From Gammaproteobacteria bacterium (GTDB lineage Bacteria > Pseudomonadota > Gammaproteobacteria > UBA4575): a stretch of 47,520 bases of DNA. The translations under genes and the position numbers were made by a program. The stretch is from assembly GCA_026706595.1 (NCBI GenBank), contig JAPOYL010000012.1, forward strand, positions 1 to 47,520, read 5' to 3'. This document shows positions 9,442-39,129 of the stretch, in pieces; position 1 is the first letter of the stretch; every line of letters starts with the position of its first letter. The notes below the pieces were generated by a model. It was not told where the DNA came from, searched no databases, and saw nothing but the letters and a program-made list of their open reading frames with translations.

Positions 9442-9768
9442 TCACTTAGTGATAATTTGTGCCAATTCGGTCACTTTGTTAGTGGTTGCTGGCGGAGCTT
9501 TTTCGATTAACTCAATATCTCTGTTCTCGAAGTCCAGGGACTTCATCTGATAGATAAGAATTGCGCCTTCTGTCTCAACACCTTTCAGCTCAACTTCAAG
9601 CTTGATCCCTCTAACGGTGCTTGTGATGGGTGCCATGATGGCAAAGCCAGTATGCTCATTAAATGCTTTTCTGGAAATCACAAAGGCCGGACGGCGTTTT
9701 GTGATTTCTCTCCCCGCGCTGGGCTCAAAGTTCAGCCAGACAATATCCCCCTTGTCTGGAATATACAT
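9442..9768 (-). CDS. mazF: MazF/PemK-family mRNA interferase toxin
   Basis: This is a cytoplasmic endoribonuclease toxin that cuts mRNA and is held inactive by the product of the upstream gene. The 108-residue product shows the family N-terminus YIPDKGDIVWLNFEPSAGREITKRRP in outline, with the GDIVW strand, the RRPAFVISRKAFN segment and the GAILIYQMKSLD segment near residues 70-80. The ATG at 9768 overlaps the antitoxin stop codon (TGATG), with GGAG placed upstream inside the antitoxin gene; the TTG one codon earlier is less likely. Its closest type is ChpB/MazF; the cut site cannot be read from sequence. Confidence 0.93.
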   Translation of the reverse strand: MYIPDKGDIVWLNFEPSAGREITKRRPAFVISRKAFNEHTGFAIMAPITSTVRGIKLEVELKGVETEGAILIYQMKSLDFENRDIELIEKAPPATTNKVTELAQIITK

Positions 9769-10022
9769 CAAGACTCCTTACCAACAGGCTTGGCATCTAT
9801 CCAATCGCGGTCTTCATCCGTGATGCGGAAATTCTCGCGAGGACTGCCAGCCAGTAGTTCTTCCAGACTTGTTTTTTTCACCACGGGATTGAGCACGATC
9901 CTGTTATCAACGATCGACAAGTCCAGTTCAGAGCCAACATGGAGGCCCAGGGCTTTTCCGATCGCTTTGGGAATGCTCACAATTTCAGCTCCGCCTGATT
10001 GGCGTACGGTAACGGTGGTCAT
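9768..10022 (-). CDS. mazE: MazE/ChpS-type AbrB-fold antitoxin
   Basis: This 84-residue antitoxin pairs with the MazF toxin and represses their shared promoter. The N-terminal half (~1-48) is an AbrB/SpoVT swapped-hairpin DNA-binding domain: the SIPKAIGKALGLHVGSELDLS stretch in outline, followed by NRIVLNPV. The acidic C-terminal tail (EELLAGSPRENFRITDEDRDW in outline) would wrap the toxin. The ATG at 10022 has a GGAG about 9 bases upstream. The stop overlaps the toxin start by one base. A palindromic operator lies 28-61 bases upstream. Confidence 0.93.
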   Translation of the reverse strand: MTTVTVRQSGGAEIVSIPKAIGKALGLHVGSELDLSIVDNRIVLNPVVKKTSLEELLAGSPRENFRITDEDRDWIDAKPVGKES

Positions 10023-10049
10023 GGTAATTACTCCGAATCAAGCGATGAT

Positions 10050-10083
10050 TGTTATATTCAAGTATAACATCTACAGTTATACT
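10050..10083 (-). promoter_or_regulatory. Palindromic operator and promoter of mazEF
   Basis: Three evenly spaced half-sites are present: GTTATA at 10051-10056, TATAAC at 10063-10068 and GTTATA at 10076-10081. They form two overlapping perfect dyads: TGTTATA/TATAACA (10050-10056 with 10063-10069) and AGTATAAC/GTTATACT (10061-10068 with 10076-10083). On the minus strand the middle site lies in TGTTATACT, an extended -10 element. A MazE-MazF complex bound here would cover the promoter. The dyads are seen directly; the regulator is inferred from known mazEF autoregulation. Confidence 0.72.
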
Positions 10084-10279
10084 CATGTAAAACATCATTT
10101 TTTTGACAACTTTGGGGAAAATTTGGAAATGATGGAAAAACGATAGGACCTGAATATGGTATATTTTCATTTAAAATCAAATGCTTATTCGAAATACTCA
10201 GTTGGCTTTGATAACGTAATTGATTCTTTAAAACAGACGCTCGTAACTGCAACACCTAAATCTACAGTGAGATATTCCC

Positions 10280-10522
10280 GTGGATGTTGAACTGACACGC
10301 AGTGTGCTGGGCTGGTGTGCTTTGGCCAACATTGGCCTGTTCCTTACCTGGTTTCTGGTTTTCACGGTAGCCCATGATGCCGTGTACAAACTGCATTGCA
10401 TCTGGTTCCCAATGTCGAAAGAGGCGTTCGACAGGGCCCACTACATCATGATGGGCGTGTACAAGCTGATCATCGTCTCTTTTTTCGTGATTCCCTATCT
10501 GGCAATGCAGGTGCTGGCATAG
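10280..10522 (+). CDS. Small two-helix membrane protein (DUF6868-like)
   Basis: The 80-residue product starts at GTG 10280 (MDVELTRSVLGWC) and has two hydrophobic helices, about 8-31 and 55-78. Between them is an amphipathic loop with the pattern HDAVYKLHCIWFPMSKEAFDR, in outline. It resembles a family of short gammaproteobacterial membrane proteins that I recall as DUF6868; its function is unknown. The codon pattern and aromatic-rich loop look like a real gene. The start is uncertain because the upstream GTGAGA is a weak ribosome site. Its last 53 bases overlap the 3' end of aguB on the other strand. Confidence 0.68.
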   Translation: MDVELTRSVLGWCALANIGLFLTWFLVFTVAHDAVYKLHCIWFPMSKEAFDRAHYIMMGVYKLIIVSFFVIPYLAMQVLA

Positions 10523-11417
10523 GATCACGCGGTGCATCCACAGATCTTTTACTGATATTGCCGTAGGCATCGATGCGCCTGTCCTGCAAATAGGGCCACA
10601 CCTGTCGGCAGCGTTTCGTCTCGCTGAGGTCAACTCTGGCATGCAAGGTCTCTGCAACATCGGCGGGTCCCTGGGTCGTAATTTTGCCGAACGCATCCGT
10701 AACAAATGAATGTCCCCAGAAATCAATGCCCCGGGTTGTACCGGAGAGATCCTTTTCGTGCCCTGTACGGTTTGTGCAGATGACCGGGAGGTTGTTTGAA
10801 ATTGAATGGCTTTGCTGGATGATTTGCCAAGCCTGCATTTGGCGCTGTTTCTCTTCGTCATCGTCTTCCGGATCCCAGCCGATTGCAGTCGGGAATATCA
10901 GGACCTCTGCGCCGCCAATCGCCATCAGGCGAGCAGCTTCCGGAAACCACTGGTCCCAGCAGACCATGACCCCGAGTTTCCCTATGCTTGTCTGAATCGG
11001 AACGAAGCCTGTGTCCCCGGCCACGAAATAGTATTGCTCATGGTAACCGGGGCCGTCAGGGATGTGCATTTTTCGATAAATCCCCGCCAGGCTGCCGTCC
11101 CGCTCCACCACCACTGCGGTGTTGTGATACATCCGCCGGGCCCGCTTCTCGAAGACCGAGCCTACGATCACGACGCGGTTTTTTCGCGCGGCAAGGCTCA
11201 GCTGGCGGGTAAGTGGCCCGGGTATCTGCTCGGCAAGCCTGAAATGCCGGGCAGACTTCTCCTGGCAAAAATACAAGCTGGTATGCAATTCACACAGCAC
11301 GACCAGGTCAGCTCCTCTGCGTGCGGCCATCTGCACCTGGGCAAGGCTGACTTCAAGGTTGGCCCGGGTGTCGGCTTGCATAGACTGCTGTACCAGTGCA
11401 ACGTTGATGGTGTTCAC
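10470..11417 (-). CDS. aguB: N-carbamoylputrescine amidase AguB
   Basis: AguB hydrolyses N-carbamoylputrescine to putrescine, CO2 and ammonia, the last step of the arginine decarboxylase/agmatine route. From the GTG at 11417 the product is 315 residues. The nitrilase-fold catalytic triad is visible: Glu43 (VLCELHTS), Lys116 (IYRKMHIPD) and Cys153 (VMVCWDQWFPE). The frame extends upstream to a TTG at 11453, but that region codes for the end of aguA. GTGA overlaps the aguA stop, so the two genes are coupled. The C-terminus has a basic, proline-rich tail longer than most relatives. Confidence 0.93.
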   Translation of the reverse strand: MNTINVALVQQSMQADTRANLEVSLAQVQMAARRGADLVVLCELHTSLYFCQEKSARHFRLAEQIPGPLTRQLSLAARKNRVVIVGSVFEKRARRMYHNTAVVVERDGSLAGIYRKMHIPDGPGYHEQYYFVAGDTGFVPIQTSIGKLGVMVCWDQWFPEAARLMAIGGAEVLIFPTAIGWDPEDDDEEKQRQMQAWQIIQQSHSISNNLPVICTNRTGHEKDLSGTTRGIDFWGHSFVTDAFGKITTQGPADVAETLHARVDLSETKRCRQVWPYLQDRRIDAYGNISKRSVDAPRDPMPAPALPDRESRKKRR

Positions 11418-12445
11418 GCGATGAAACCCTCGGGTATTTGCATGGCAGCACAATGCAGACCGCCGCGCTCGTGAATCAAGGCGCTGCTTTCAATATCGAT
11501 GATCTCCCGATCCGGAAATAACTCGTCCATCAGCTTGAGGGTACAGTCGTCTTGCCGGTCCTGGAAGACCGGTACCAGGACGCAGTTGTTCGTGATCAGA
11601 AAGTTGGTGTAGGTGGCAGGCAGTTGCTGTCCATTCAGGAAGATCGGGTCAGGCATAGGCAGCGGGACGAGTTCAAACCTGTTGCAGCCTTGTTTGTTTA
11701 TTTCAGAAAGCTGTATCGAGAGTCGGCCAAGCGCTTCATGATTGACGTCTTTGGGGTTACGGGAAGCGGAGTAGGTAATGATGTCATTGGTACAAAATCG
11801 TGCAAGTGTGTCGACATGTCCACAGGTGTCATCGCCTGCAAGCTGTATCCGGTCCAGCCAGTGGACTTTGCGGCACCCCAACCAGTGCTCGAACTGTTCC
11901 TCGAGTATTGTAAACTCCGTATCCGGCAGTGGGCGGTTGCGCTCGAAGCAGGCCCTTGAGCACAGCAACTCGCCTTGCCCGTTGATTTCGATGTTGCCAG
12001 CTTCAAGCACCTGATCGATGTACTGGTATGAGGCACTGAACCTCAGATCCTTGACCAGATCCGCAGTAACGGCATTATCCAGTTGCCAGTTGTATCTTTG
12101 TCCCCACCCATCGAATTGAAAGTCGAGCAAGAATTTTCTGTGCCCGGATACTGCGCACACAGGGCCATAATCACGTATCCAGGTATCATTCGTGGGGATG
12201 TTCGCAAAGCTGACATTTTCACAATCTGCGTCAGCCGCGCTCAACTTGTCTTTGATGTTTTGCGCATGAGCGTCGTTGTAGGCAATCAAGATGATAGCCT
12301 GGTGCCTGCCAACATATTTGCATATTTGCAGATAAACGGATTCGATCTGTTCCAGCCTGGGTGCCCAGTCCGAGTATGGATGGGGCCAGACGATCACGAT
12401 GGCATCCTGGCGCCCCCATTCGGGAGCTAATCTGCTTGCACTCAC
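11414..12445 (-). CDS. aguA: Agmatine deiminase family protein AguA
   Basis: AguA converts agmatine to N-carbamoylputrescine and ammonia. The 343-residue product belongs to the guanidine-modifying (PAD) superfamily. The TNDTWIRDYGP motif is at 85-95, EAGNIEING holds the usual Glu-Asn pair (relatives mostly have EGG), GDDTCGHVDTLARF supplies the catalytic His and Asp, and the nucleophile is Cys332 in RGGLHCAAMQ. It pairs with aguB, whose GTG overlaps its TGA. The pair makes putrescine without ornithine decarboxylase. Substrate specificity is inferred mainly from the aguB partner. Confidence 0.92.
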   Translation of the reverse strand: MSASRLAPEWGRQDAIVIVWPHPYSDWAPRLEQIESVYLQICKYVGRHQAIILIAYNDAHAQNIKDKLSAADADCENVSFANIPTNDTWIRDYGPVCAVSGHRKFLLDFQFDGWGQRYNWQLDNAVTADLVKDLRFSASYQYIDQVLEAGNIEINGQGELLCSRACFERNRPLPDTEFTILEEQFEHWLGCRKVHWLDRIQLAGDDTCGHVDTLARFCTNDIITYSASRNPKDVNHEALGRLSIQLSEINKQGCNRFELVPLPMPDPIFLNGQQLPATYTNFLITNNCVLVPVFQDRQDDCTLKLMDELFPDREIIDIESSALIHERGGLHCAAMQIPEGFIA

Positions 12446-12530
12446 AGCGGTGATTCAGGGTCGTATCAAGAGTTGTGACTCGATGGTTTTGAAGATTTGC
12501 CGGTTTGCAGGATGGCGCACACCCCCTCGG

Positions 12531-13049
12531 CTATAGCCTTGGCATCAGTTCTACCAGGTTGCATGGACGGGTACGGTAATCCAGTTGATGCGAGATAAGC
12601 TTGTCCCACGCCTCGGCGCATGCTCCACTTGAGCCGGGCAGGCAAAAAACGTATGTCCGGTTGGCGACTCCTGCAAACGCCCGGGATTGCAGGGTAGAGG
12701 TTTTTATGGTTTCAAATGAGAGTACCCGGAACATTTCGCCAAAGCCTGAAATCTCCTTGTCCAGCAGCGGTTTGACCGCCTCAGGAGTTCCGTCCCTTCC
12801 GGTGACGCCCGTGCCCCCGGTAGTGAGTATGACGTCAGGTTTGGGTTCTGAGATCCAGGGGGACACCGCGGCCCTGATTCTGTATTTGTCATCCGGGACA
12901 ATGACTTTGCCATGAACATTGTGACCCGCGGATTGCAGTCGATCACACAGGATTTTTCCGGACTTGTCGTCTTTTTCTGTACGTGTATCGGAAATTGTCA
13001 GTACGGCAATATCCAGAGATATGAAGTCACGCTTTTTTTCATCACCCAT
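12531..13049 (-). CDS. moaB: Molybdenum cofactor biosynthesis protein MoaB
   Basis: MoaB has the MogA/MoaB molybdopterin-binding fold and acts in molybdopterin adenylylation, or as a MogA counterpart. The ATG at 13049 gives 172 residues beginning MGDEKKRDFISL. An AGGA about 10 bases upstream supports it over a TTG at 13067. The signature TTGGTGVTGRDGTPE is near residues 75-89, and the family PGSSGACAEAWD segment is near 138-149. It is divergent from moaE, with 97 bp between them. Confidence 0.93.
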   Translation of the reverse strand: MGDEKKRDFISLDIAVLTISDTRTEKDDKSGKILCDRLQSAGHNVHGKVIVPDDKYRIRAAVSPWISEPKPDVILTTGGTGVTGRDGTPEAVKPLLDKEISGFGEMFRVLSFETIKTSTLQSRAFAGVANRTYVFCLPGSSGACAEAWDKLISHQLDYRTRPCNLVELMPRL

Positions 13050-13146
13050 ATTCTTGCATCCTGCCAATGGTCATCACCTGTCATGTACAGTAGTATTTTA
13101 TGGATAATGCAGTCAAACACACGGTTATCAAGAGAATCAGGCGGGC

Positions 13147-13593
13147 ATGAAAATCGAGATTCGTGATGCTGCATTCGATCCTTGGCGGGAAGTCCAGGAC
13201 TATCAGGAGCAGTGCCTGGCAAAGCCGGGAAAATATGGGGCGACAGCGGTATTTGTAGGTACCATGCGGGATTTCAATGCCGGTGAGCAGATCCATTCGA
13301 TGTATCTGGAACATTATCCGGAAATGACCCAGGGGCATCTGCAGCAGATTGCGCAGGAGGCCGCCCGTAGATGGGAAATACTGGATGCACTGCTGCTACA
13401 TCGTGTAGGCCAAGTGTTTCCAGGCGATCCGATTGTATGTGTTGCTATCTGGTCAGCGCACCGGGCCGCTGCCTATGAGGCCAACCGCTTCATCATGGAA
13501 GACCTGAAATCCAAATCCCCGATCTGGAAAAAAGAGCATTTGGCGGGCCGGCAACGCTGGCTTACAGGCGATGAAGGAAAATCCTGCTCATGA
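13147..13593 (+). CDS. moaE: Molybdopterin synthase catalytic subunit MoaE
   Basis: MoaE, with the sulfur carrier MoaD, turns cyclic pyranopterin monophosphate into molybdopterin. The 148-residue product shows GATAVFVGTMRDFNAG near 31-46, LEHYPEM near 54-60 and the catalytic lysine region LKSKSPIWKKE near 120-130. moaD, which normally precedes moaE, is not here, and neither are moaA or moaC. They must be elsewhere if the pathway works. The region after moaE leads straight into the convergent end of moeA. Confidence 0.95.
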   Translation: MKIEIRDAAFDPWREVQDYQEQCLAKPGKYGATAVFVGTMRDFNAGEQIHSMYLEHYPEMTQGHLQQIAQEAARRWEILDALLLHRVGQVFPGDPIVCVAIWSAHRAAAYEANRFIMEDLKSKSPIWKKEHLAGRQRWLTGDEGKSCS

Positions 13594-27259: not shown

Positions 27260-28417
27260 GTGAGCGATGATCATGTCCGGATACTCGTTGTCGATGACGA
27301 GGTGGACTTAGAGCAGCTGATGCTGCAGAAAATGAGGCGGGAAGTCCGCCGCGGTCGTTACATTTTTGAGTTTGCACACAACGGTGCTGAAGCCCTGAAG
27401 CTCCTGCGTGAGAATGGCAAGTATGACATCGTGCTGTCTGATATCAATATGCCTGTCATGGACGGACTGACCTTGCTGGCACAAATACCGGACGTCGATC
27501 CTGACATACGTGCGGTGATGGTTTCTGCATACGGGGACATGGAAAATATCAGGACTGCAATGAATCGAGGTGCGTTTGATTTTGTCACCAAGCCCATCGA
27601 TTTCACGGACCTGAAGGTCACCATCGAGCGCACGATTGAAAATCTTACGCTGTGGCGTCAGGCGCTGAGCACACGCGACAAGCTGGTCGCGCTTCAGAAC
27701 GAACTCGATGTTGCCAGGAAGATGCAACAGAGCATTCTTCCCATGTCGTTTCCCAGTTCTGAAGAATTCAATCTCTACGCAAGTATGGTGCCGGCACGCT
27801 CCGTGGGCGGCGATTTTTTTGATGTGTACGAATTCTCTGATGGCCGGATCGGTGTGGTGATCGCTGATGTGTCCGACAAGGGAGTACCGGCTGCAATGTT
27901 CATGATGGCCAGCCGTACGCTGCTAAAGGCCTGTGCTGCAACTTCCAGTTCTCCAGCCAATGTATTACAGCAAGTGAACGGAATGCTGGCAGACAATAAT
28001 GCCGACATGACCTTTGTGACCCTGTTATACGGCATTTACGACCCCCAGACGAAAGAGCTTGTGTATTCAAACGGTGGGCACAACTTGCCTGTGGTTGTAA
28101 AACCGGACGAGACCATTGAGTTGCTGGAGTCAACGGAAGGAACTGCTCTGGGTGTCATGCCGGATTTGGAATATCAGGAAAAAACGGTTGCTCTGGAATC
28201 CGGCTCGATGATCGTATTCTATACAGACGGGGTTTCGGAAGCGGAGAAGGACGATGGCGAACTGTTTGAGATGGACAGGTTTTTCGAGGTTTTTCGAAAC
28301 AGTTCATTCGGGAGCGCCAAGGATGTAACCGATACGGTGTTCCAGTCGGTCAGGGAGTATGCAGGAGAGACCCCCCAGTCCGACGACATCACTTGCCTTG
28401 TTCTGCGGGTCACCTGA
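27260..28417 (+). CDS. Response regulator with PP2C/SpoIIE-type serine phosphatase (RsbU-like)
   Basis: The 385-residue product joins a receiver domain (1-125; phosphorylation site Asp61 in LSDINMP, Ser89, Lys111 in TKPID) through a coiled-coil linker (~125-160) to a PP2C domain (~170-385). The PP2C metal residues are present in GGDFFD at 183-188, DVSDKG at 203-208 and SDD at 374-376. Such proteins dephosphorylate STAS antagonists when the receiver is phosphorylated; Pseudomonas HsbR is a related design. The start is GTG 27260 with GGGTGG just upstream. The RsbW-like gene follows after 15 bases and a histidine kinase lies two genes further on, so both input and target are encoded nearby. Confidence 0.92.
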   Translation: MSDDHVRILVVDDEVDLEQLMLQKMRREVRRGRYIFEFAHNGAEALKLLRENGKYDIVLSDINMPVMDGLTLLAQIPDVDPDIRAVMVSAYGDMENIRTAMNRGAFDFVTKPIDFTDLKVTIERTIENLTLWRQALSTRDKLVALQNELDVARKMQQSILPMSFPSSEEFNLYASMVPARSVGGDFFDVYEFSDGRIGVVIADVSDKGVPAAMFMMASRTLLKACAATSSSPANVLQQVNGMLADNNADMTFVTLLYGIYDPQTKELVYSNGGHNLPVVVKPDETIELLESTEGTALGVMPDLEYQEKTVALESGSMIVFYTDGVSEAEKDDGELFEMDRFFEVFRNSSFGSAKDVTDTVFQSVREYAGETPQSDDITCLVLRVT

Positions 28418-28432: not shown

Positions 28433-28852
28433 ATGATGCAAGCTTCACGCACACTGGTTGTTGCCAATCGAATGGAGGAGATTCGCACGATCGAGACGGC
28501 GCTGGAGGAATTTGGCGAGCAGCACGGATTTCCCATGGATGCGCTGCTTCAGATTCAGCTTGCGCTGGAGGAACTTTTTACGAATGTAGTCAGCTATGCT
28601 CATGATGATGACCAGGAGCATGAAGTTGAGATCAAGCTCTCAAGGGAGGGTGATACCATCACTGTCGAGATCACGGATGATGGATTTCCCTTTGACCCAT
28701 TGCATGATGCGCCTGAGCTGGATATTGAAAGCTCACTTGAAGAACGCAGTGTAGGCGGTGCTGGCATCAGACTGGCCAAGGAGCTGATGACGGAGTTGCG
28801 CTACCAGCGCAACGGTGAACGCAACCATTTAACCATGGTCAAGAAGATCTAA
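28433..28852 (+). CDS. RsbW-like ATP-binding protein (anti-sigma factor / serine kinase family)
   Basis: The 139-residue product is a lone HATPase_c domain of the GHKL superfamily. The N box LALEELFTNVV is at 43-53 (Glu46, Glu47, Asn51), the G1 box TDDGFPFDP at 81-89, and the G2 region VGGAGIRLAKELM at 107-119. Relatives phosphorylate a STAS protein on serine and bind it, or a sigma factor, in turn. It is placed between the PP2C gene and the periplasmic binding protein gene, 4 bases before the latter. Two ATG codons stand in tandem (28433, 28436) after GGAG. The partner it restrains is unknown; no sigma factor lies in the window. Confidence 0.88.
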   Translation: MMQASRTLVVANRMEEIRTIETALEEFGEQHGFPMDALLQIQLALEELFTNVVSYAHDDDQEHEVEIKLSREGDTITVEITDDGFPFDPLHDAPELDIESSLEERSVGGAGIRLAKELMTELRYQRNGERNHLTMVKKI

Positions 28853-28856
28853 TAAA

Positions 28857-30083
28857 GTGCAGGCTCTGCGCAGACTATCTCCCAGAAAAGCCTTTACCAC
28901 ACTTTTTGCTGCAATATTTGCAAGTGCTGCAGCTGGAGAGGTCGAGGAAAGCATAATCACTACACCTGGCGTAAACAGTGAACGCATCCTGTTTGGGCAA
29001 TCCGCCGCTTTCAGCGGCCCTGCAGGCGAACTTGGTAAAAGCATGAAGGCGGGGATTCTTGCAGCTTTCAAAGAAGTCAATGACAGAGGTGGCGTCAATG
29101 GACGCCGTCTGGAATTGCACTCGCTGGACGATGCCTATGAACCTGAAGCAGCAGTTGCAAATACACAGGAGCTAATCGAAGAGGGCATTTTTGCTCTTAT
29201 AGGTGCGGTAGGTACACCTACTTCCCAGTCGGCGGTCCCGGTCACCGAGGCAAACGATGTGCCCTACCTGGCCCCTATGACAGGTGCGGAATACCTGCGT
29301 GACAATACCCGTCATACCGTCATCAATCTCCGGGCCTCGTACTACCAGGAAACCGAGGAGATGGTGGAGCGACTGACCACTGACATGGGATACGATCGCA
29401 TTGCCATCCTCTACCAGGATGACTCCTTTGGGCGTGCAGGATTGCAAGGTGTTCTCCTGGCCCTTGAGCGTCGTGAACTTTCCGCTGTTGGTACGGGTGT
29501 GTTTCCCCGAAACACAATTGCAGTGAAAACGGCACTTCTCGATCTGCGAGCGACGGAGCCGCAGGCTGTGATCATAGTGGGTCCCTATAAACCAACAGCA
29601 ACCTTTATCAAGTGGGCGCGACGTCTTGGCATGGATCCAATTTTCATGACACTGTCTTTTGTTGGCAGCAATGCCCTGGCAAAGGAATTGGGTACCGAGG
29701 GTTCAGGCGTTTTGGTGACACAGGTTGTGCCCTTTCCGACAGGGGATGCGATAAACGCATCGGCTTTGTATCGTGCAGCACTAAAAGCCTATGATCCGGC
29801 TGCTGAGCCTGGTTTCATATCGTTCGAAGGATATCTGGCAGGACGTCTAGCGGCTTACGTGGTTTCACAATGTGGCAAGCGGGTCAACCGCGATTGTATC
29901 AATTCAGTACTGAGAACCGATGACAGCATCAGTCTGGACGGGTTCAAATTGCGTTACGGCAAGAATGACAACCAGGGTTCGGACAGGGTCTTTCTGACGG
30001 TAATTGGCCCCAATGGCCAGTACTCGCCCGTGACATCATTAACCTCTGTAGCATCGCTGACAGGGGTTTCGCATTCGCAATGA
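28857..30083 (+). CDS. Periplasmic ligand-binding protein (branched-chain amino acid/Peripla_BP_6 type)
   Basis: The start is GTG at 28857 and the product has 408 residues. A basic N-terminus and hydrophobic core (~12-27) form a signal peptide, likely cut after ASAAAG. The mature part is a type I periplasmic binding fold: FGQSAAFSGPAGELGKSMKAG in outline near 46-66, VNDRGGVNGRRLELHSLDDAY in outline, ALIGAVGTPTS near 115-125 and AILYQDDSFGRAG near 182-194. No ABC permease or ATPase genes accompany it. Its place between signalling genes suggests a role as the sensor's ligand receptor, as TorT serves TorS. The ligand is unknown. Confidence 0.88.
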   Translation: MQALRRLSPRKAFTTLFAAIFASAAAGEVEESIITTPGVNSERILFGQSAAFSGPAGELGKSMKAGILAAFKEVNDRGGVNGRRLELHSLDDAYEPEAAVANTQELIEEGIFALIGAVGTPTSQSAVPVTEANDVPYLAPMTGAEYLRDNTRHTVINLRASYYQETEEMVERLTTDMGYDRIAILYQDDSFGRAGLQGVLLALERRELSAVGTGVFPRNTIAVKTALLDLRATEPQAVIIVGPYKPTATFIKWARRLGMDPIFMTLSFVGSNALAKELGTEGSGVLVTQVVPFPTGDAINASALYRAALKAYDPAAEPGFISFEGYLAGRLAAYVVSQCGKRVNRDCINSVLRTDDSISLDGFKLRYGKNDNQGSDRVFLTVIGPNGQYSPVTSLTSVASLTGVSHSQ

Positions 30084-30099
30084 ATTTGAGATAAGCGGA

Positions 30100-32304
30100 A
30101 TGCCTGCAAGACTCTGGAGTCGAATTTCCACACAGCTTTATGTCGGTTTCGGCGGTGCCGTCGCACTGATCATCGTGATCAGCCTGCTTGCCCTCTTCAT
30201 TCTTGATTACATTGGAAAAATCCAGCAAAACGTCAGTGAGAAAAGTGTCCCCGAGATGACATCCGCGTTCGCGATTGCCCAGCAAACATCATCGCTTGTT
30301 GCAGCAGTGCCACGCCTTACAACGGTGGCTACACCGGAAGAATTCGAGACCATCGCTGCAACAACAGGCTGGCAGGCAGATGCATTCGAGGCACAACTCT
30401 CGATCATGCTGGAAAACCAGGGGAGAGATGCAAGGGCGCAACAGATTCAGTCAGGTGGGATTGGCATTGTACAAAATATTGACCAGGTCAAACTGCTTGT
30501 CAGGGAACGCTTCGATGTTCGCCAGAAAATTATCGATCTCAGGGATGAACTCCAGGTGGTTCAGGGCAAGTTGACAACCCTCTTGATCGAAGAGATCGAT
30601 GACCAGATGTTCTACACGATGACAGGCTACAGGTCTCTCGATGAGGAACGGTCACCACTTTCTGTTCATTTTTCAGAGCAGGAATTCCAGACATATCGCC
30701 GTCTGGTTGAGCTGCGTGAAGCGGCTGCCATCGCCACGGAGCTGCTGGCGACTGCGTTCACGGTAACTGATGAAGCGTTGCTGGAACCCTTGCGGGAGCG
30801 GTTTGAAGCTACCGTCGGCCATGCGGGCCGGTCGCTTGATGCGCTTGAAAACACAGCTGTTCATGGCCGGTTATCGACGGCTTTTTCTGACCTGTTATCG
30901 GTTGGCAGAAGGGAAAACAATGGATTTGATTTGCGTTTCAGGGAACTTACAGTTGATGAGGAACTGGCGGATCTGCTGAACGACAGCCAGATTCTTGGAA
31001 TTGACGTCGTTGCACAGGTAGAGAGCTTTGTAGATGACTCCAGCATGGCTGCTGGAGAGATGGCCGACAAGGCAACCCAGGCGACGACTACCAGCACAAC
31101 GATATTGCTTGTTGTCAATCTTGTGAGTATCGGTGGTGCATTCCTGTTTGTCTGGTTACTCGTACAACGCCGCTTGATCAGGCGTTTGGATCGAATTTCA
31201 AACCAGATGCAGCAAATGGCTGGCGGCGATCTGGAAGTTGCCATTGACGTTGATGGTCGCGATGAGATTGCGCAGCTAGCCAAGGCACTGGATGTTTTCA
31301 GGAACAATGCGCTGGAGGTGCAGCGTCTTAACCTCGTGGAAACGCTCGCGGAAGAGCTGAAAGGGAAAAACGAGGAACTGGCAAGCACCAATGAGGAATT
31401 GGAGCGTGCACAGGATCAAATTGTGATGCGTGAGAAGCTTGCTGCACTTGGTCAATTAACGGCAGGGGTAGCACATGAAATCAAGAACCCAATGAACTTC
31501 ATCATGAACTTTTCAGAGGTCTCGCAAGAGCTCCTCGAAGAGCTCCTCGAAGAAGTGGCCAAGGGCAAAGCCGGGGAAGGAAATGGAGAAGATGACTACG
31601 ATCCGGAATTCGTCGAGGAAGTGGCCGGGGACCTTACCGGAAATCTGCAGCGCATTCACGAGCATGGTAAGCGTGCAAACCGGATTGTAATGGACATGCT
31701 GAAAATGGGTCGTGGTGGCGGGGACTGGCAGGAAACCGACCTGAACATACTGTTGAATGATCATGCGCTGCTTGCATTTCATAGTGCCCGTGCCGCTGAC
31801 ACGGAATTTCAGCTGGAAATTCAGGAGGACTATGAGGAAGGGTTGCGGGAAATCATGGTACGCCCACAAGATCTTGGCCGGGTATTCCTGAATTTGGTGA
31901 CCAATGCCTGTTATGCCACTGATGAAAAAAGAAAAGCTCTGCTGGAGAAAGGCGGTGATGCCGGCAAGGAGTATCAACCGATACTCAAGCTGAGCACGCT
32001 GCAGGTCGGAGACCATGTAGAGGTACATGTCCGGGACAATGGCAACGGTATTCCCGAATCAGCGTTGGAACGTATTTTCAATCCATTCTATACAACTAAG
32101 CCGCCGGATAAGGGCACCGGCCTGGGACTGTCACTGTCCAGTGACATCATGCGCGAGCATGGTGGTGAAATCCGTGTGGACACCAAGGAAGGTGAATACA
32201 CCGATATGATCGTTGTTCTACCTGTGGAGCAGGTCAGCCATGAGGCAACGGGAACTACCGAAGAATCTGCAGATGGAGAAGATGTCGCTGTTGCACCACC
32301 CTGA
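30100..32304 (+). CDS. Membrane sensor histidine kinase with large helical periplasmic domain (TorS-like input)
   Basis: The 734-residue product has a membrane helix at ~14-37, a mostly helical periplasmic region (~38-332), a second helix (~333-355), HAMP (~355-408), a coiled coil and a HisKA domain with His459 in AGVAHEIKNPMNF. The ATPase domain follows, with N-box FLNLVTNACYA near 596-606, DNGNGIPE and the GTGLGLSLS lid. There is no receiver or HPt domain. A loop of about 45 residues, including a tandem ELLE repeat and an acidic stretch, separates the two DHp helices, as in a known kinase subfamily. It closes the four-gene operon and probably phosphorylates the REC-PP2C protein. Confidence 0.92.
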   Translation: MPARLWSRISTQLYVGFGGAVALIIVISLLALFILDYIGKIQQNVSEKSVPEMTSAFAIAQQTSSLVAAVPRLTTVATPEEFETIAATTGWQADAFEAQLSIMLENQGRDARAQQIQSGGIGIVQNIDQVKLLVRERFDVRQKIIDLRDELQVVQGKLTTLLIEEIDDQMFYTMTGYRSLDEERSPLSVHFSEQEFQTYRRLVELREAAAIATELLATAFTVTDEALLEPLRERFEATVGHAGRSLDALENTAVHGRLSTAFSDLLSVGRRENNGFDLRFRELTVDEELADLLNDSQILGIDVVAQVESFVDDSSMAAGEMADKATQATTTSTTILLVVNLVSIGGAFLFVWLLVQRRLIRRLDRISNQMQQMAGGDLEVAIDVDGRDEIAQLAKALDVFRNNALEVQRLNLVETLAEELKGKNEELASTNEELERAQDQIVMREKLAALGQLTAGVAHEIKNPMNFIMNFSEVSQELLEELLEEVAKGKAGEGNGEDDYDPEFVEEVAGDLTGNLQRIHEHGKRANRIVMDMLKMGRGGGDWQETDLNILLNDHALLAFHSARAADTEFQLEIQEDYEEGLREIMVRPQDLGRVFLNLVTNACYATDEKRKALLEKGGDAGKEYQPILKLSTLQVGDHVEVHVRDNGNGIPESALERIFNPFYTTKPPDKGTGLGLSLSSDIMREHGGEIRVDTKEGEYTDMIVVLPVEQVSHEATGTTEESADGEDVAVAPP
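31528..31551 (+). repeat. Tandem 12-bp duplication inside the histidine kinase gene
   Basis: The 12-base unit GAGCTCCTCGAA occurs twice head to tail and encodes ELLE twice in the loop of the dimerisation domain. It keeps the frame and lengthens an acidic helix by four residues. Confidence 0.85.
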
Positions 32305-32308
32305 AGTG

Positions 32309-32659
32309 TCAGTTGTGTGCCGCGTGGATTGCTTCAGGAAGTGATTCTTGTATCTCGATAATCTTGTCAAAGCCAGAAGTACGTATAACCTGCAGGGCTA
32401 GTTCCGGCAGTGAAGACAACATAAATTTCTTATTTCTGTCTCTGGATATTTTTGCAGCCAGCAAGATTGAATGCAGCCCAGCACTGCTGATGTATGTCAG
32501 TTTCTTAAAATCCAGGATAACGGGGCCATCTATGTTCTGAATCCTATGCTCAAGATCGTTTCGGAATTCTTGGGCATTAACACCATCAACATGGCCTCCT
32601 ACGTGGATTACTAGAACGCCTTCAATCGTCTCGTCTGCCAAGTGCAGTTCCCGGATCAC
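32309..32659 (-). CDS. STAS-domain anti-sigma factor antagonist (paralogue 1)
   Basis: The 116-residue product is one STAS domain of the SpoIIAA/RsbV family. The strand VILDFKKLTYISSAGLHSIL (residues 47-66) carries Ser58-Ser59; by alignment with SpoIIAA, Ser59 is the likely phosphorylation site. The usual Asp before that Ser is Ser here. The start is GTG 32659 with GGAGAA about 10 bases upstream. It faces the kinase operon tail to tail with 4 bases between the stops. With the second STAS gene it forms the expected target of the PP2C and RsbW-like pair. Confidence 0.9.
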   Translation of the reverse strand: MIRELHLADETIEGVLVIHVGGHVDGVNAQEFRNDLEHRIQNIDGPVILDFKKLTYISSAGLHSILLAAKISRDRNKKFMLSSLPELALQVIRTSGFDKIIEIQESLPEAIHAAHN

Positions 32660-32853: not shown

Positions 32854-33210
32854 CTAACCCTTGATCGCTTCTACTGCTGCGGTTCGAGATTGAAGTACAT
32901 CAATGATCTTGTCAAAACCTGCAATCTCAACGATTTCTTTTATGGGCTCAGGCAGGGAGCAAAGCATGAACTTTGTATTCTTGCCCTTGAGTGTTTTTGC
33001 AATAAGCAGGATTGAACGTAACCCTGCACTACTGATGTAGGACAGATTCTCCAGATCCAGTACTACTGGATTGTCAGAGCCATCAATTTCCTTGTTGAGG
33101 TTATTGTAAAATTCCTGAGCGTTCACACCGTCAATACGGCCCGTCACGCTTATAATTAGTGCAGTCCCTTCAACCTGATCGACCTGCAATTCTACTTGGT
33201 GATTTTGAAT
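32854..33210 (-). CDS. STAS-domain anti-sigma factor antagonist (paralogue 2), probable ATT start
   Basis: This second STAS domain shares IDGVNAQEF-like and YISSAGLRSILL stretches with paralogue 1, so the two arose by duplication. The first ordinary start codon is TTG 33189, which has no ribosome site. An in-frame ATT at 33210 stands 7 bases after GGAG and gives 118 residues, equal to paralogue 1 in N-terminal length. Ser60-Ser61 is the phosphosite pair. A gap of 194 bp separates it from paralogue 1, so the two may have separate promoters. Confidence 0.86.
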   Translation of the reverse strand: MQNHQVELQVDQVEGTALIISVTGRIDGVNAQEFYNNLNKEIDGSDNPVVLDLENLSYISSAGLRSILLIAKTLKGKNTKFMLCSLPEPIKEIVEIAGFDKIIDVLQSRTAAVEAIKG

Positions 33211-37950: not shown

Positions 37951-39129
37951 TCACCACTCGCTTGATTTTGATGCAAGTACATGGTCGGGCATCTTATAGC
38001 TCACACCGATCTCGTCGTATTGGGAAGCGTTGAGAAGCTGGAGAAAATTCTCTGACTTGATCAACTGTACATCCTTTGTCAGTCGCATGCTAAGCTGCTT
38101 TGCGCGATACATGTGCAGAACTCCCGTGCTGCTGCTTTTCGGGAACTGCAGCTGGTTGGCAAGCTGGCTCCCCACCAGGGCTCTTGAAATACGGTATGCC
38201 AGGTCCCTCATGGAATCCTGTTCATCGAGATCGGACAGTCCTGCGACTAGCGGGATGGATTGTATCAGGGCGTTTGATATGGTTGCAGCATCTGCATCCG
38301 GAGGCGGTTCGCACATGAAGCCGATTTTGAACAGTTCATGCGCCTCTTGCTGGGTGCTAAACAGGATTGTTTCAGGCACACCCATGAGATGACCCACATA
38401 GCGCCATAACTCGAAGATGCTGTCCTTTTCGGTCTGGTTGTAGTTGGCACCTACTGACGTCGAGTGCTCCAGCAGTCTATGTGAAAACAAGGCGGTGGAA
38501 AAACCCATGTGTGCCGCACTTATCGGGGTACCCCAGGCCTTTGTGTCCCATTCGTCTGCAGTTTTTATCAGCTGCCTCACCCGCGCATGAATGAAGCGGA
38601 TGCGCACGGACAATTTCCATCCGTCACCTTTTCTCTGCAGCCCACCGGGGAAAAATATTTCCAGCAAATGCCGGTTGACTTGCTTCAATTGCCTGATGCT
38701 GACATCTGTTTCTTGCAACATGCGGCCCGTGATACCGAATGGCTTACTCATCAACGTCGAAAAGCCTTCGACCAGCACCCCGGTAACCAGTGCAAGCAGT
38801 ATGTCACTTGCTTTGGTGTAGAACGCCTGAATAGCCGGATCAAAGGCCTTGTAGTCAAGCCAGGAAGGGGGTTCATTGATCCGCTCAAAAGCATCACGCA
38901 ACGCTTGGGGTGCGGCACGCAAGACTTCTGTCTGCTGTTCGATTCCGGCAGCGATGAACTGGTGCAGGTCTTCGCTGGGAAGGGCGGAGATTTCTTCCAT
39001 CACCGGATCCAGCTCGGGATCACCTATGCAGGTATGCTTGATGTAATTGTCTGCGGTGGCAAGGTCATGCAGACGAGCCGAGACATAACCTTCGGTGTAG
39101 GCAGAGGGTGCTGGCTGCATTTTCACCAC
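37951..39129 (-). CDS. MpaB/latex-clearing-like oxygenase family protein (DUF2236)
   Basis: The 392-residue product resembles the DUF2236/MpaB family, which includes heme-b rubber oxygenases (Lcp) and fungal MpaB. Visible family elements are LALVTGVLVEGFSTLMSKP near 111-130, the VRIRFIHARVRQLI helix near 175-188 with its conserved Arg and His, and WGTPISAAHMGFST near 201-214, whose His is a candidate heme ligand. No signal peptide is seen. The start is GTG 39129, 7 bases after GGAG; an ATG three codons on is also possible. Function and substrate are unknown. It lies apart from the genes on both sides. Confidence 0.72.
   Translation of the reverse strand: MVKMQPAPSAYTEGYVSARLHDLATADNYIKHTCIGDPELDPVMEEISALPSEDLHQFIAAGIEQQTEVLRAAPQALRDAFERINEPPSWLDYKAFDPAIQAFYTKASDILLALVTGVLVEGFSTLMSKPFGITGRMLQETDVSIRQLKQVNRHLLEIFFPGGLQRKGDGWKLSVRIRFIHARVRQLIKTADEWDTKAWGTPISAAHMGFSTALFSHRLLEHSTSVGANYNQTEKDSIFELWRYVGHLMGVPETILFSTQQEAHELFKIGFMCEPPPDADAATISNALIQSIPLVAGLSDLDEQDSMRDLAYRISRALVGSQLANQLQFPKSSSTGVLHMYRAKQLSMRLTKDVQLIKSENFLQLLNASQYDEIGVSYKMPDHVLASKSSEW

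Follow-up and report, generated by a model that had tools for sequence, protein, structure and literature searches.

What does a secreted solute-binding protein do when its gene stands beside a sensor kinase instead of a transporter? The question is raised by a stretch of 47,520 nucleotides (the window) from a contig of a gammaproteobacterium of the UBA4575 lineage (JAPOYL010000012.1). The sequence-only reading of the window had paired an orphan binding protein with a TorS-like histidine kinase. Both open reading frames were confirmed at the positions given for them and the pair is real, but that account missed the genes upstream, for a response regulator with a phosphatase domain (RR-PP2C) and an RsbW-like protein, as well as the STAS output module (Table 1).

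The Locus

The genes for RR-PP2C, the RsbW-like protein, the binding protein, and the kinase form a tight run with gaps of 15, 4, and 16 nt. The two STAS genes lie on the opposite strand and face this run. Scans for promoters and terminators returned about as many sites as shuffled sequence did.

Table 1. Features of the locus, with positions in the window
Feature	Position	Strand	Evidence
RR-PP2C: response regulator, receiver + SpoIIE/PP2C serine phosphatase, 385 aa	27260..28417	+	PF00072 7.2e-24, PF07228 3.2e-55
RsbW-like anti-sigma/serine kinase, 139 aa	28433..28852	+	PF13581 3.8e-28
Binding protein, LivJ class (branched-chain-amino-acid type), predicted secreted, 408 aa, GTG start	28857..30083	+	PF13458 1.6e-52
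Orthodox sensor histidine kinase, TorS-type periplasmic domain, 734 aa	30100..32304	+	PF21689, HAMP, HisKA, HATPase_c
Kinase sensor region as modelled, residues 30-340, TorS sensor domain	30187..31119	+	Pfam, PDB profile, predicted fold
STAS anti-sigma-factor-antagonist-like protein 1, 116 aa, convergent	32309..32659	-	PF01740 7.6e-17, YISSAG phospho-site motif
STAS anti-sigma-factor-antagonist-like protein 2, 111 aa	32854..33189	-	PF01740 2e-19, YISSAG phospho-site motif

A Binding Protein without a Permease

The assignment of the binding protein to the branched-chain amino acid type held: it is a Peripla_BP_6 protein (179.7 bits). Its only Pfam matches are PF13458, PF01094, and PF13433, which places it outside the TorT-class family. 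The N-terminus, proposed to be a signal peptide, resembles one by eye. The nearest solved structure to the predicted one (pLDDT 92.9) is 4kv7, a binding protein of Rhodopirellula baltica (Z 53.2, rmsd 1.4 over 354 residues, 36% identity), and 3lop and LivJ/LivK are also among the structural or profile matches. TorT is missing from the VIA structural list for this protein, an absence that carries no weight. In a profile alignment to LivK (2lbp), read by eye, the position of LivK Glu226, which we take to be the acidic residue that binds the amine of the amino acid, faces the invariant Ser of SFVGS.

The claim that the protein has no permease now extends from the neighborhood to the genome, which is 92.28% complete and contains no match to the LivH/LivM-type family PF02653. 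As a positive control, the same search found permeases in 12 of 14 control genomes. ABC ATPase genes were not evident by eye among the open reading frames of 22-40 kb, and a second relative of the binding protein was not found in the same genome. The protein is more likely a receptor than a transport component.

The TorS-Type Sensor

Two hydrophobic segments of the kinase, roughly residues 9-42 and 335-353, leave some 293 periplasmic residues. This part had been described as mostly helical, and its predicted structure is almost entirely so. The likeness to TorS was borne out by a profile search with the sensor alone, which scores 31.1 bits against TorS_sensor_domain (PF21689, cut-off 27); the full 734-aa kinase reaches 21.5 bits, below the cut-off. 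Among 41 homologues, 34 match the same family, and no other Pfam family, which might have pointed to an unrelated domain, is matched by more than one. TorS also comes first in a profile search of the PDB (3o1h, 1.1e-7, whole domain), and the predicted structure (pLDDT 92) finds its best matches in TorS-TorT complexes (Z 19.6, 256 residues, rmsd 2.6). By sequence and predicted fold, then, the sensor is a TorS sensor domain, and its most conserved stretch is DDQMFYTMTGYR, residues 167-178.

The similarity to TorS spans this one domain. The kinase carries its catalytic motifs (HEIKNP from residue 459, and the N/G/F/G-box). Receiver and Hpt domains make TorS a hybrid kinase, whereas a Pfam search of the kinase here matched neither Response_reg nor Hpt, so its architecture is orthodox. 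TIGR02956 scores 137 bits against it, with an equivalog cut-off of 676.5. As in TorT-TorS, which senses TMAO (3o1h, 3o1i, 3o1j, 3i9w, 3i9y), a helical TorS sensor is accompanied by a separate secreted binding protein encoded beside the kinase. However, the binding protein here is of the LivJ class, unlike TorT, and the predicted output is a PP2C partner switch rather than a DNA-binding regulator.

The Predicted Output Switch

RR-PP2C has its receiver aspartate (Asp61) in LSDINMP and the PP2C motifs GGDF, DVSDKG, TDG, and SDDIT; the roles of Asp61 and of the PP2C motif residues are presumed. It is the sole PF07228 match in the genome. The RsbW-like protein is likewise the sole above-cut-off match of its type, with two weaker ones below the cut-off in frames of 473 and 791 aa, and the two STAS genes are the only stand-alone ones found. 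Candidate phosphorylated residues in the STAS proteins are Ser58/59 and Ser53/54. All the partner-switch parts found in the genome sit at this locus, and no other such switch was seen.

A receiver-PP2C phosphatase, a separate RsbW-like kinase, and a STAS protein with a phospho-Ser site make up the gene set of the Rba type, as in the Rhodobacter capsulatus system RbaVWY and the Bacillus cereus system RsbK-RsbY-RsbVW. Unlike RsbK, a hybrid kinase, and unlike Rba, the switch here has a binding-protein-linked TorS-type kinase inside the operon. The RbaY architecture is given as REC plus PP2C in PMC3999984, where a figure legend describes the Rba sensor kinase as not known. PMC6482189 (for CrsR-CrsA and HsbR-HsbA) and PMC12826045 (for SypE-SypA) describe receiver-controlled PP2C and RsbW-like activities that act on a STAS protein. 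In CrsR, HsbR, and SypE, the receiver, PP2C, and RsbW share one polypeptide, whereas here they are divided between two genes. The input to HsbR comes by way of HptB. In AioX-AioS, LuxP-LuxQ, and others, a binding protein is the first component of a two-component system, according to PMC5908839, but the classes of both binding protein and sensor differ from those found here.

Conservation among Relatives

A scan seeded by the binding protein alone collected 80 loci. A gene for a TorS-like sensor lies directly downstream of the binding protein in 60 of them, or in 66 if chemoreceptors are counted, and the pairing is near-exclusive in close relatives. Of these 60 loci, 56 have RR-PP2C, 54 RsbW, 48 STAS, and 46 all three. 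Cassettes, defined as the kinase plus PP2C and/or RsbW, occur at 57 of the 80 loci, labelled as 11 phyla. Co-occurrence with permeases in relatives, which would have spoken for transport, was seen once: Liv permeases (LivHMGF-type genes) adjoin one locus of the 80, L108, where a TorS-like sensor follows as well. No ABC permeases were seen in the stretches around 13 more distant copies from a class-wide search. In 12 of the 80 loci, with solo or tandem copies, the contig continues past the binding protein but no sensor comes directly after it, so the family can also act without the kinase.

In the same genus, the gene set is kept in all four relatives found with the kinase, being complete in two and broken by contig ends in two, and STAS protein 2 is 79-100% identical in the four. 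No part of the cassette is more conserved than the binding protein (mean pairwise identity 64%, versus 40% for the sensor; 53 loci). Its sequence includes a lipobox at 15 of 21 loci of Actinomycetota or Chloroflexota but at none of the 33 loci labelled as other phyla, the pattern expected if the protein must stay outside near the kinase. Patristic distances of six parts correlate at 0.78-0.94 in all 15 pairs, and in each pair none of 500 permutations was as high. The parts of the cassette are co-inherited, and inheritance as a block would yield correlated trees even without contact between the parts.

Proposed Mechanism and Alternatives

Together, the binding protein and the TorS-type kinase probably form a two-part receptor wired to the partner switch. 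The gene content, catalytic motifs, TorS fold, pairing, joint inheritance of the parts, and failure to find a second such switch in the genome are established directly; we infer the docking, the control by ligand, the phosphotransfer, the direction of the steps, and the target. The secreted LivJ-class type I binding protein, serving no transporter, would bind a small solute as its ligand and dock on the helical sensor domain, as TorT does on TorS. Its state would alter the output of the kinase through HAMP, and phosphate would pass to Asp61 of the neighboring response regulator. The PP2C domain would then dephosphorylate one or both STAS proteins, opposed by the RsbW-like kinase, which would phosphorylate them, and free STAS and RsbW would release or hold a downstream target.

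One alternative is direct sensing of a small ligand by the helical domain, as in the HBM domain of McpS, with the binding protein in a separate or modulatory role. McpS, with a similar bimodular helical fold, and PilJ domains are indeed among the next structural matches of the sensor (VIA Z about 14-15), but they fall below TorS by fold, and TorS is first by sequence. None of the 41 homologues matches the HBM (McpS-type) family at E<=0.01. The conservation of the binding protein, and the fact that it keeps the same sensor partner whatever the output, also make direct sensing unlikely. We give very little credence to the idea that the protein is a scavenging component of ABC transport, with its permease elsewhere or shared and the kinase adjacent by chance. 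Its LivJ class and the genes at L108 would fit, but a transport role was rejected on the lack of a PF02653 permease in the genome (92% complete) and its near-absence in relatives, where Liv permeases are near 1 of 80 loci versus a sensor directly downstream in 60.

Doubtful, but to be taken more seriously, is an ordinary output behind a TorT-TorS-like input, namely a switch that sets a sigma factor free, on the pattern of SigB in Bacillus or CrsR-RpoS in Shewanella. The RsbW-like and STAS components would fit such a switch, and homologous systems act on sigma factors according to PMC6482189. However, the only three region-2 sigma factors found in the genome read by length and sequence as RpoD, RpoH, and RpoE types. 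No RpoS-, FliA-, or SigB-like factor was found in the genome, about 8% of which is missing, and the operon has no sigma gene. An output through RpoS or FliA, as in CrsR/HsbR, was rejected on this ground.

The preferred reading, a two-part receptor feeding the partner switch, unites two textbook modules, TorS-type sensing gated by a binding protein and partner switching through RsbU/RsbW/STAS, whose joint description was not found in the literature searched. It puts forward the TorS-type kinase as a specific type of sensor for REC-PP2C systems that lack a known input, such as RbaY. On this reading, a protein that named genomes list as "ABC transporter substrate-binding protein" would more likely be a receptor.

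Distribution and the Possible Ligand

The recurrence of this gene set across many bacteria that are only distantly related suggests a receptor common to them, responding to a small molecule. Many cassette-bearing bacteria apparently come from marine sponges. Phyla are mixed in the tree, with 15 changes against a minimum of 10 (quick tree, LG+G4), and a bin labelled "Desulfurellaceae" sits among Binatota. Such mixing is not proof of transfer, as a bin may include contigs of other organisms and some labels may be incorrect.

Gene context offers a faint hint that the ligand may be a nitrogenous amide or ureide, and to the same slight degree favors the amino acid, amide, or urea-like compound proposed from the sequence alone. 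Ammonium transporter genes occur near 12 of 56 cassettes versus 1 of 24 other loci (Fisher p 0.09), and genes for circularly permuted ATP-grasp proteins near 16 of 56 versus 1 of 24 (p 0.016), p values that are loose because related cassettes share ancestry. The single "other" locus in both comparisons, L072, is a cassette too, complete except for a recognised PP2C. Neither gene occurs at the studied locus as far as it is annotated, and the three ammonium transporters of the genome are all on other contigs.

Tentatively, and with less than even confidence, the cassette (STAS, receiver-PP2C, RsbW, LivJ-class binding protein, and TorS-type kinase) may be a mobile one that has spread over at least 11 phyla living together in marine sponges, all reading one nitrogenous small molecule derived from the holobiont, with the same input joined, outside sponges, to chemoreceptors and a nucleotide cyclase. 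A common ligand, if there is one, would open a first way to study a signal that many phyla of the sponge microbiome share.

Chemoreceptors and Distant Copies

In alphaproteobacteria, the same input is predicted to drive chemoreceptors. At all seven loci with a chemoreceptor directly downstream of the binding protein, that chemoreceptor carries the TorS-like sensor (L117 is already counted among the 60), and the four other chemoreceptor frames in those loci all lack it. The class-wide search (E<=1e-45) found 13 loci in 12 of 368 other genomes. Only one has the cassette, in G197, a genome from a different family, and there with three STAS genes. The neighbors of the remaining copies are chemoreceptors, hybrid kinases, a HAMP-PAS protein, or Cache proteins, with no evident partner in some cases, and the sensor profile recognised none of the seven partner or neighbor proteins tested.

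Relatives of the binding protein also occur in 67 plasmid records, every one at less than 60% identity. A cassette on plasmids was considered and rejected, given that all five records examined have a chemoreceptor downstream and that no PP2C gene is named for these five in the PLSDB table, which is itself incomplete. The sensor profile recognises two of the five plasmid chemoreceptors, so the sensors of the other three are too far or different. A binding-protein gene with a chemoreceptor gene beside it is present in Terrarubrum flagellatum 7MK25 (L8F45_RS30600/RS30605) and in Ruegeria sp. TM1040 (TM1040_RS01290/RS01295). Chemoreceptor versions exist in cultured strains, which makes the ligand findable.

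Architecture of the locus

The evidence supports reading the locus as a TorT-TorS-like receptor with a partner-switching output that is widespread and co-inherited. It differs from TorT-TorS in the class of its binding protein and in that output. The sequence-only reading had proposed a TorT-TorS-type pair at 28857-32304; the coordinates of both genes are exact, and the interpretation is supported, and is extended by the partner switch and the co-inheritance. The gaps in the four-gene run are 15, 4, and 16 nt, in gene order. To judge from sequence, the motifs expected of a functional kinase, of a receiver, of a PP2C phosphatase, and of a phosphorylation site in STAS proteins are all in place. 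The genome containing the window (1.56 Mb, 92.28% complete) has one SpoIIE phosphatase and one RsbW-type match above the cut-off. Its STAS domains number three, two in stand-alone genes and one in a protein reading as a SulP-like transporter, so that every switch part found is at the window locus.

Genes of the locus and a neighbor
Feature	Position	Arrangement
Receiver-PP2C phosphatase	27260-28417	First gene of tight run
RsbW-like kinase	28433-28852	Second gene of tight run
Binding protein	28857-30083	Third gene of tight run
Sensor kinase	30100-32304	Fourth gene of tight run
Two STAS genes	32309-32659 and 32854-33189	Convergent to run
MPAB/Lcp-type oxygenase	37951-39129	Close to cassette

The STAS paralogues diverge unequally over four congeners: that at 32854-33189 is 79-100% identical and that at 32309-32659 about 46-75%. 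The oxygenase has relatives close to the cassettes of five Acidimicrobiia contigs and of locus L072 as well. At L057 (3126) and L058 (3222), an extra frame with receiver-like as well as STAS-like matches lies upstream of the phosphatase and adjoins two more STAS genes.

The sensor is a TorS domain

The sensor of the window kinase is a TorS domain by Pfam, TIGR02956, structure profile, and predicted fold. The full kinase scores 21.5 bits against the Pfam TorS domain, below the cut-off of 27, and the sensor domain by itself scores 31.1 bits. When 41 sensors (the window's own and 40 picked from relatives) were matched individually, 34 hit TorS_sensor_domain at E<=0.01 and 40 hit TIGR02956, bearing out the earlier reading of a TorS-like kinase. 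Against solved structures, the profile of the 41 sensors finds TorS first (1.1e-7, with nearly the whole domain aligned), whereas syntaxin and coiled coils, the hits that come next, do no better than 0.002. Structure prediction (pLDDT 92.2) agrees, with TorS first in Foldseek, where all six matches at E<=0.001 are TorS, and first in VIA-align 2 (Z 19.6, 256 residues, rmsd 2.6). The VIA-align 2 runners-up, Vc1313, McpZ, McpS, and PilJ, reach Z of about 14-16 in a comparison in which helical bundles score freely. TorS consists of two stacked four-helix bundles and has TorT and TMAO as partners, according to a review (PMC8534201). The best-conserved stretch of the sensor family, DDQMFYTMTGYR (residues 167-178), lies where a 65-residue helix ends, probably at the membrane-distal tip.

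A binding protein without its transporter

The binding protein is of the LivJ class (PF13458; predicted structure pLDDT 92.9), with 4kv7 as the closest solved structure. A search for PF02653 permeases that was positive in 12 of 14 control genomes found none in the window's genome (92.28% complete); nor was a second relative of the binding protein found there. Permeases beside the relatives had been named beforehand as evidence against a receptor. A species-genome scan, for which 16 aligned binding proteins were the sole seed, yielded at least 573 confirmed stretches, and the neighbor genes of the best 80 were classified with phmmer; all locus counts below refer to these 80. Liv permeases occur in just one. 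This locus, L108 (2468-9215), has LivHMGF-type genes beside the binding protein and then a gene whose product combines a TorS-like sensor with a nucleotide cyclase domain; it is the sole one of the 80 with both transporter genes and receptor.

In 60 of the 80 loci, the gene directly downstream, in the orientation of the binding-protein gene, encodes a TorS-like sensor; receiver-PP2C accompanies it in 56, RsbW in 54, STAS in 48, and all three in 46. In six further loci, the binding protein is directly followed by a chemoreceptor that resembles the sensor profile in its N-terminal part, for a total of 66 paired loci. Counting L117, one of the 60, all seven directly downstream chemoreceptors match the profile, compared to none of the four chemoreceptor frames that these loci have besides. 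Two of the 14 unpaired copies (L048 and L115) are within 130 nt of a contig end, and the other 12, of which 11 were inspected, are solo or tandem copies. The sensor thus occurs with a kinase and partner switch, a chemoreceptor, or a cyclase, making the input modular.

Relatives also occur in 67 plasmid records. In all five that were opened (Ruegeria sp. TM1040, Phaeobacter inhibens, P. piscinae, Thioclava sp., and Terrarubrum flagellatum), the relative bears the annotation of an ABC substrate-binding protein, and the gene after it encodes a chemoreceptor. Two of these five chemoreceptors match the sensor profile, that of Terrarubrum strongly and that of Ruegeria weakly. Ruegeria's other nearby chemoreceptor does not match. 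The Ruegeria pair lies on a megaplasmid (L146, 5929-9855), and its "ABC substrate-binding protein" is likely a misannotated receptor; the strain is a tractable one.

Co-inheritance and spread

When the distance sets of the six parts, each covering the window together with the loci, are compared two by two, all 15 correlations lie between 0.78 and 0.94, and none of 500 permutations was as high. In the 53 loci that have the five main parts, the binding protein averages 64% identity between pairs, the PP2C protein 61%, the kinase core 60%, RsbW 42%, and the sensor 40%; STAS averages 49% over 47 loci. Cassettes with the kinase plus PP2C and/or RsbW number 57 of the best 80, and carry labels of 11 phyla (two are unlabelled). 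In a concatenated tree of 56 rows, the phyla are intermixed, with 15 label changes compared to a minimum of 10. The row closest to the window among the matches listed, L047, is labelled Dadabacteria; its cassette proteins are 67-79% identical, and none of the window's other genes surround the cassette on its contig. Transfer is likely but falls short of proof, because bins can be impure. At 9533-13214, L047 also carries another, partial copy of the kinase (199 aa) and one more STAS gene, as if the cassette end had been duplicated, and by eye a transposase-like gene at 11967-13214.

Nearer the window, the kinase is present at high similarity in four congeners and in none of 14 other genomes searched of the same family. 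The gene set is complete in congeners G002 and G004, kept as far as the contigs extend in G001 and G003, and also present in G197, a genome from outside the family. With start codons picked by a simple rule, a binding-protein lipobox was seen in 15 of 21 loci from the single-membrane phyla Actinomycetota and Chloroflexota, compared to 0 of 33 from other labelled phyla and one of two unlabelled.

Bin names of the "jk18x" kind mark 12 of the 57 cassettes and the names RHO, COS, CAR, IRC, or APA mark 11; SB06xx, p16x, 277c, and OX/OY labels are probably for the most part sponge sets. None of the seven chemoreceptor-type loci bears the sponge-type labels. Since 15 of the 16 remaining loci share label kinds with the cassettes, this contrast is with chemoreceptor loci and not with every other copy. 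The "jk18x" names are used in an Ircinia sponge paper (PMC9531527), and the second group appears to be initials of sponge hosts in PMC8163846.

Output, novelty, and ligand

In related switches, the targets are sigma factors or other proteins, according to three papers (PMC6482189, PMC3999984, PMC12826045). In the window's genome (1.56 Mb, 92% complete), only three region-2 sigma factors were found, typed by length and eye as RpoD-, RpoH-, and RpoE-like, which makes RpoS or FliA unlikely as a target. Full-text searches of open PMC papers gave none whose listing describes a PP2C/RsbW/STAS switch fed by a kinase under the control of a binding protein. The combination is provisionally undescribed, since subscription journals mostly lie outside the literature searched.

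In an alignment read by eye, an invariant serine of the binding protein faces the amine-binding glutamate of LivK, a hint that the ligand may be something other than a simple L-amino acid. Ammonium transporters lie near 12 of the 56 receiver-PP2C cassettes compared to one of 24 other loci; for genes of the circularly permuted ATP-grasp type, the corresponding numbers are 16 and one. Amidases adjoin solo copies L099, L101, and L107, and solo copy L102 has a carbon-nitrogen hydrolase, an amidohydrolase, and a cytosine/purine/allantoin-type permease nearby. The best guess, held loosely, is a nitrogenous amide or ureide. The ATP-grasp genes are found at L049 (11015-12448), L054 (661-2103), and 15 other loci of several phyla; they co-occur with an ammonium transporter in seven receiver-PP2C loci, and that of L054 is accompanied by a transglutaminase-domain protein.
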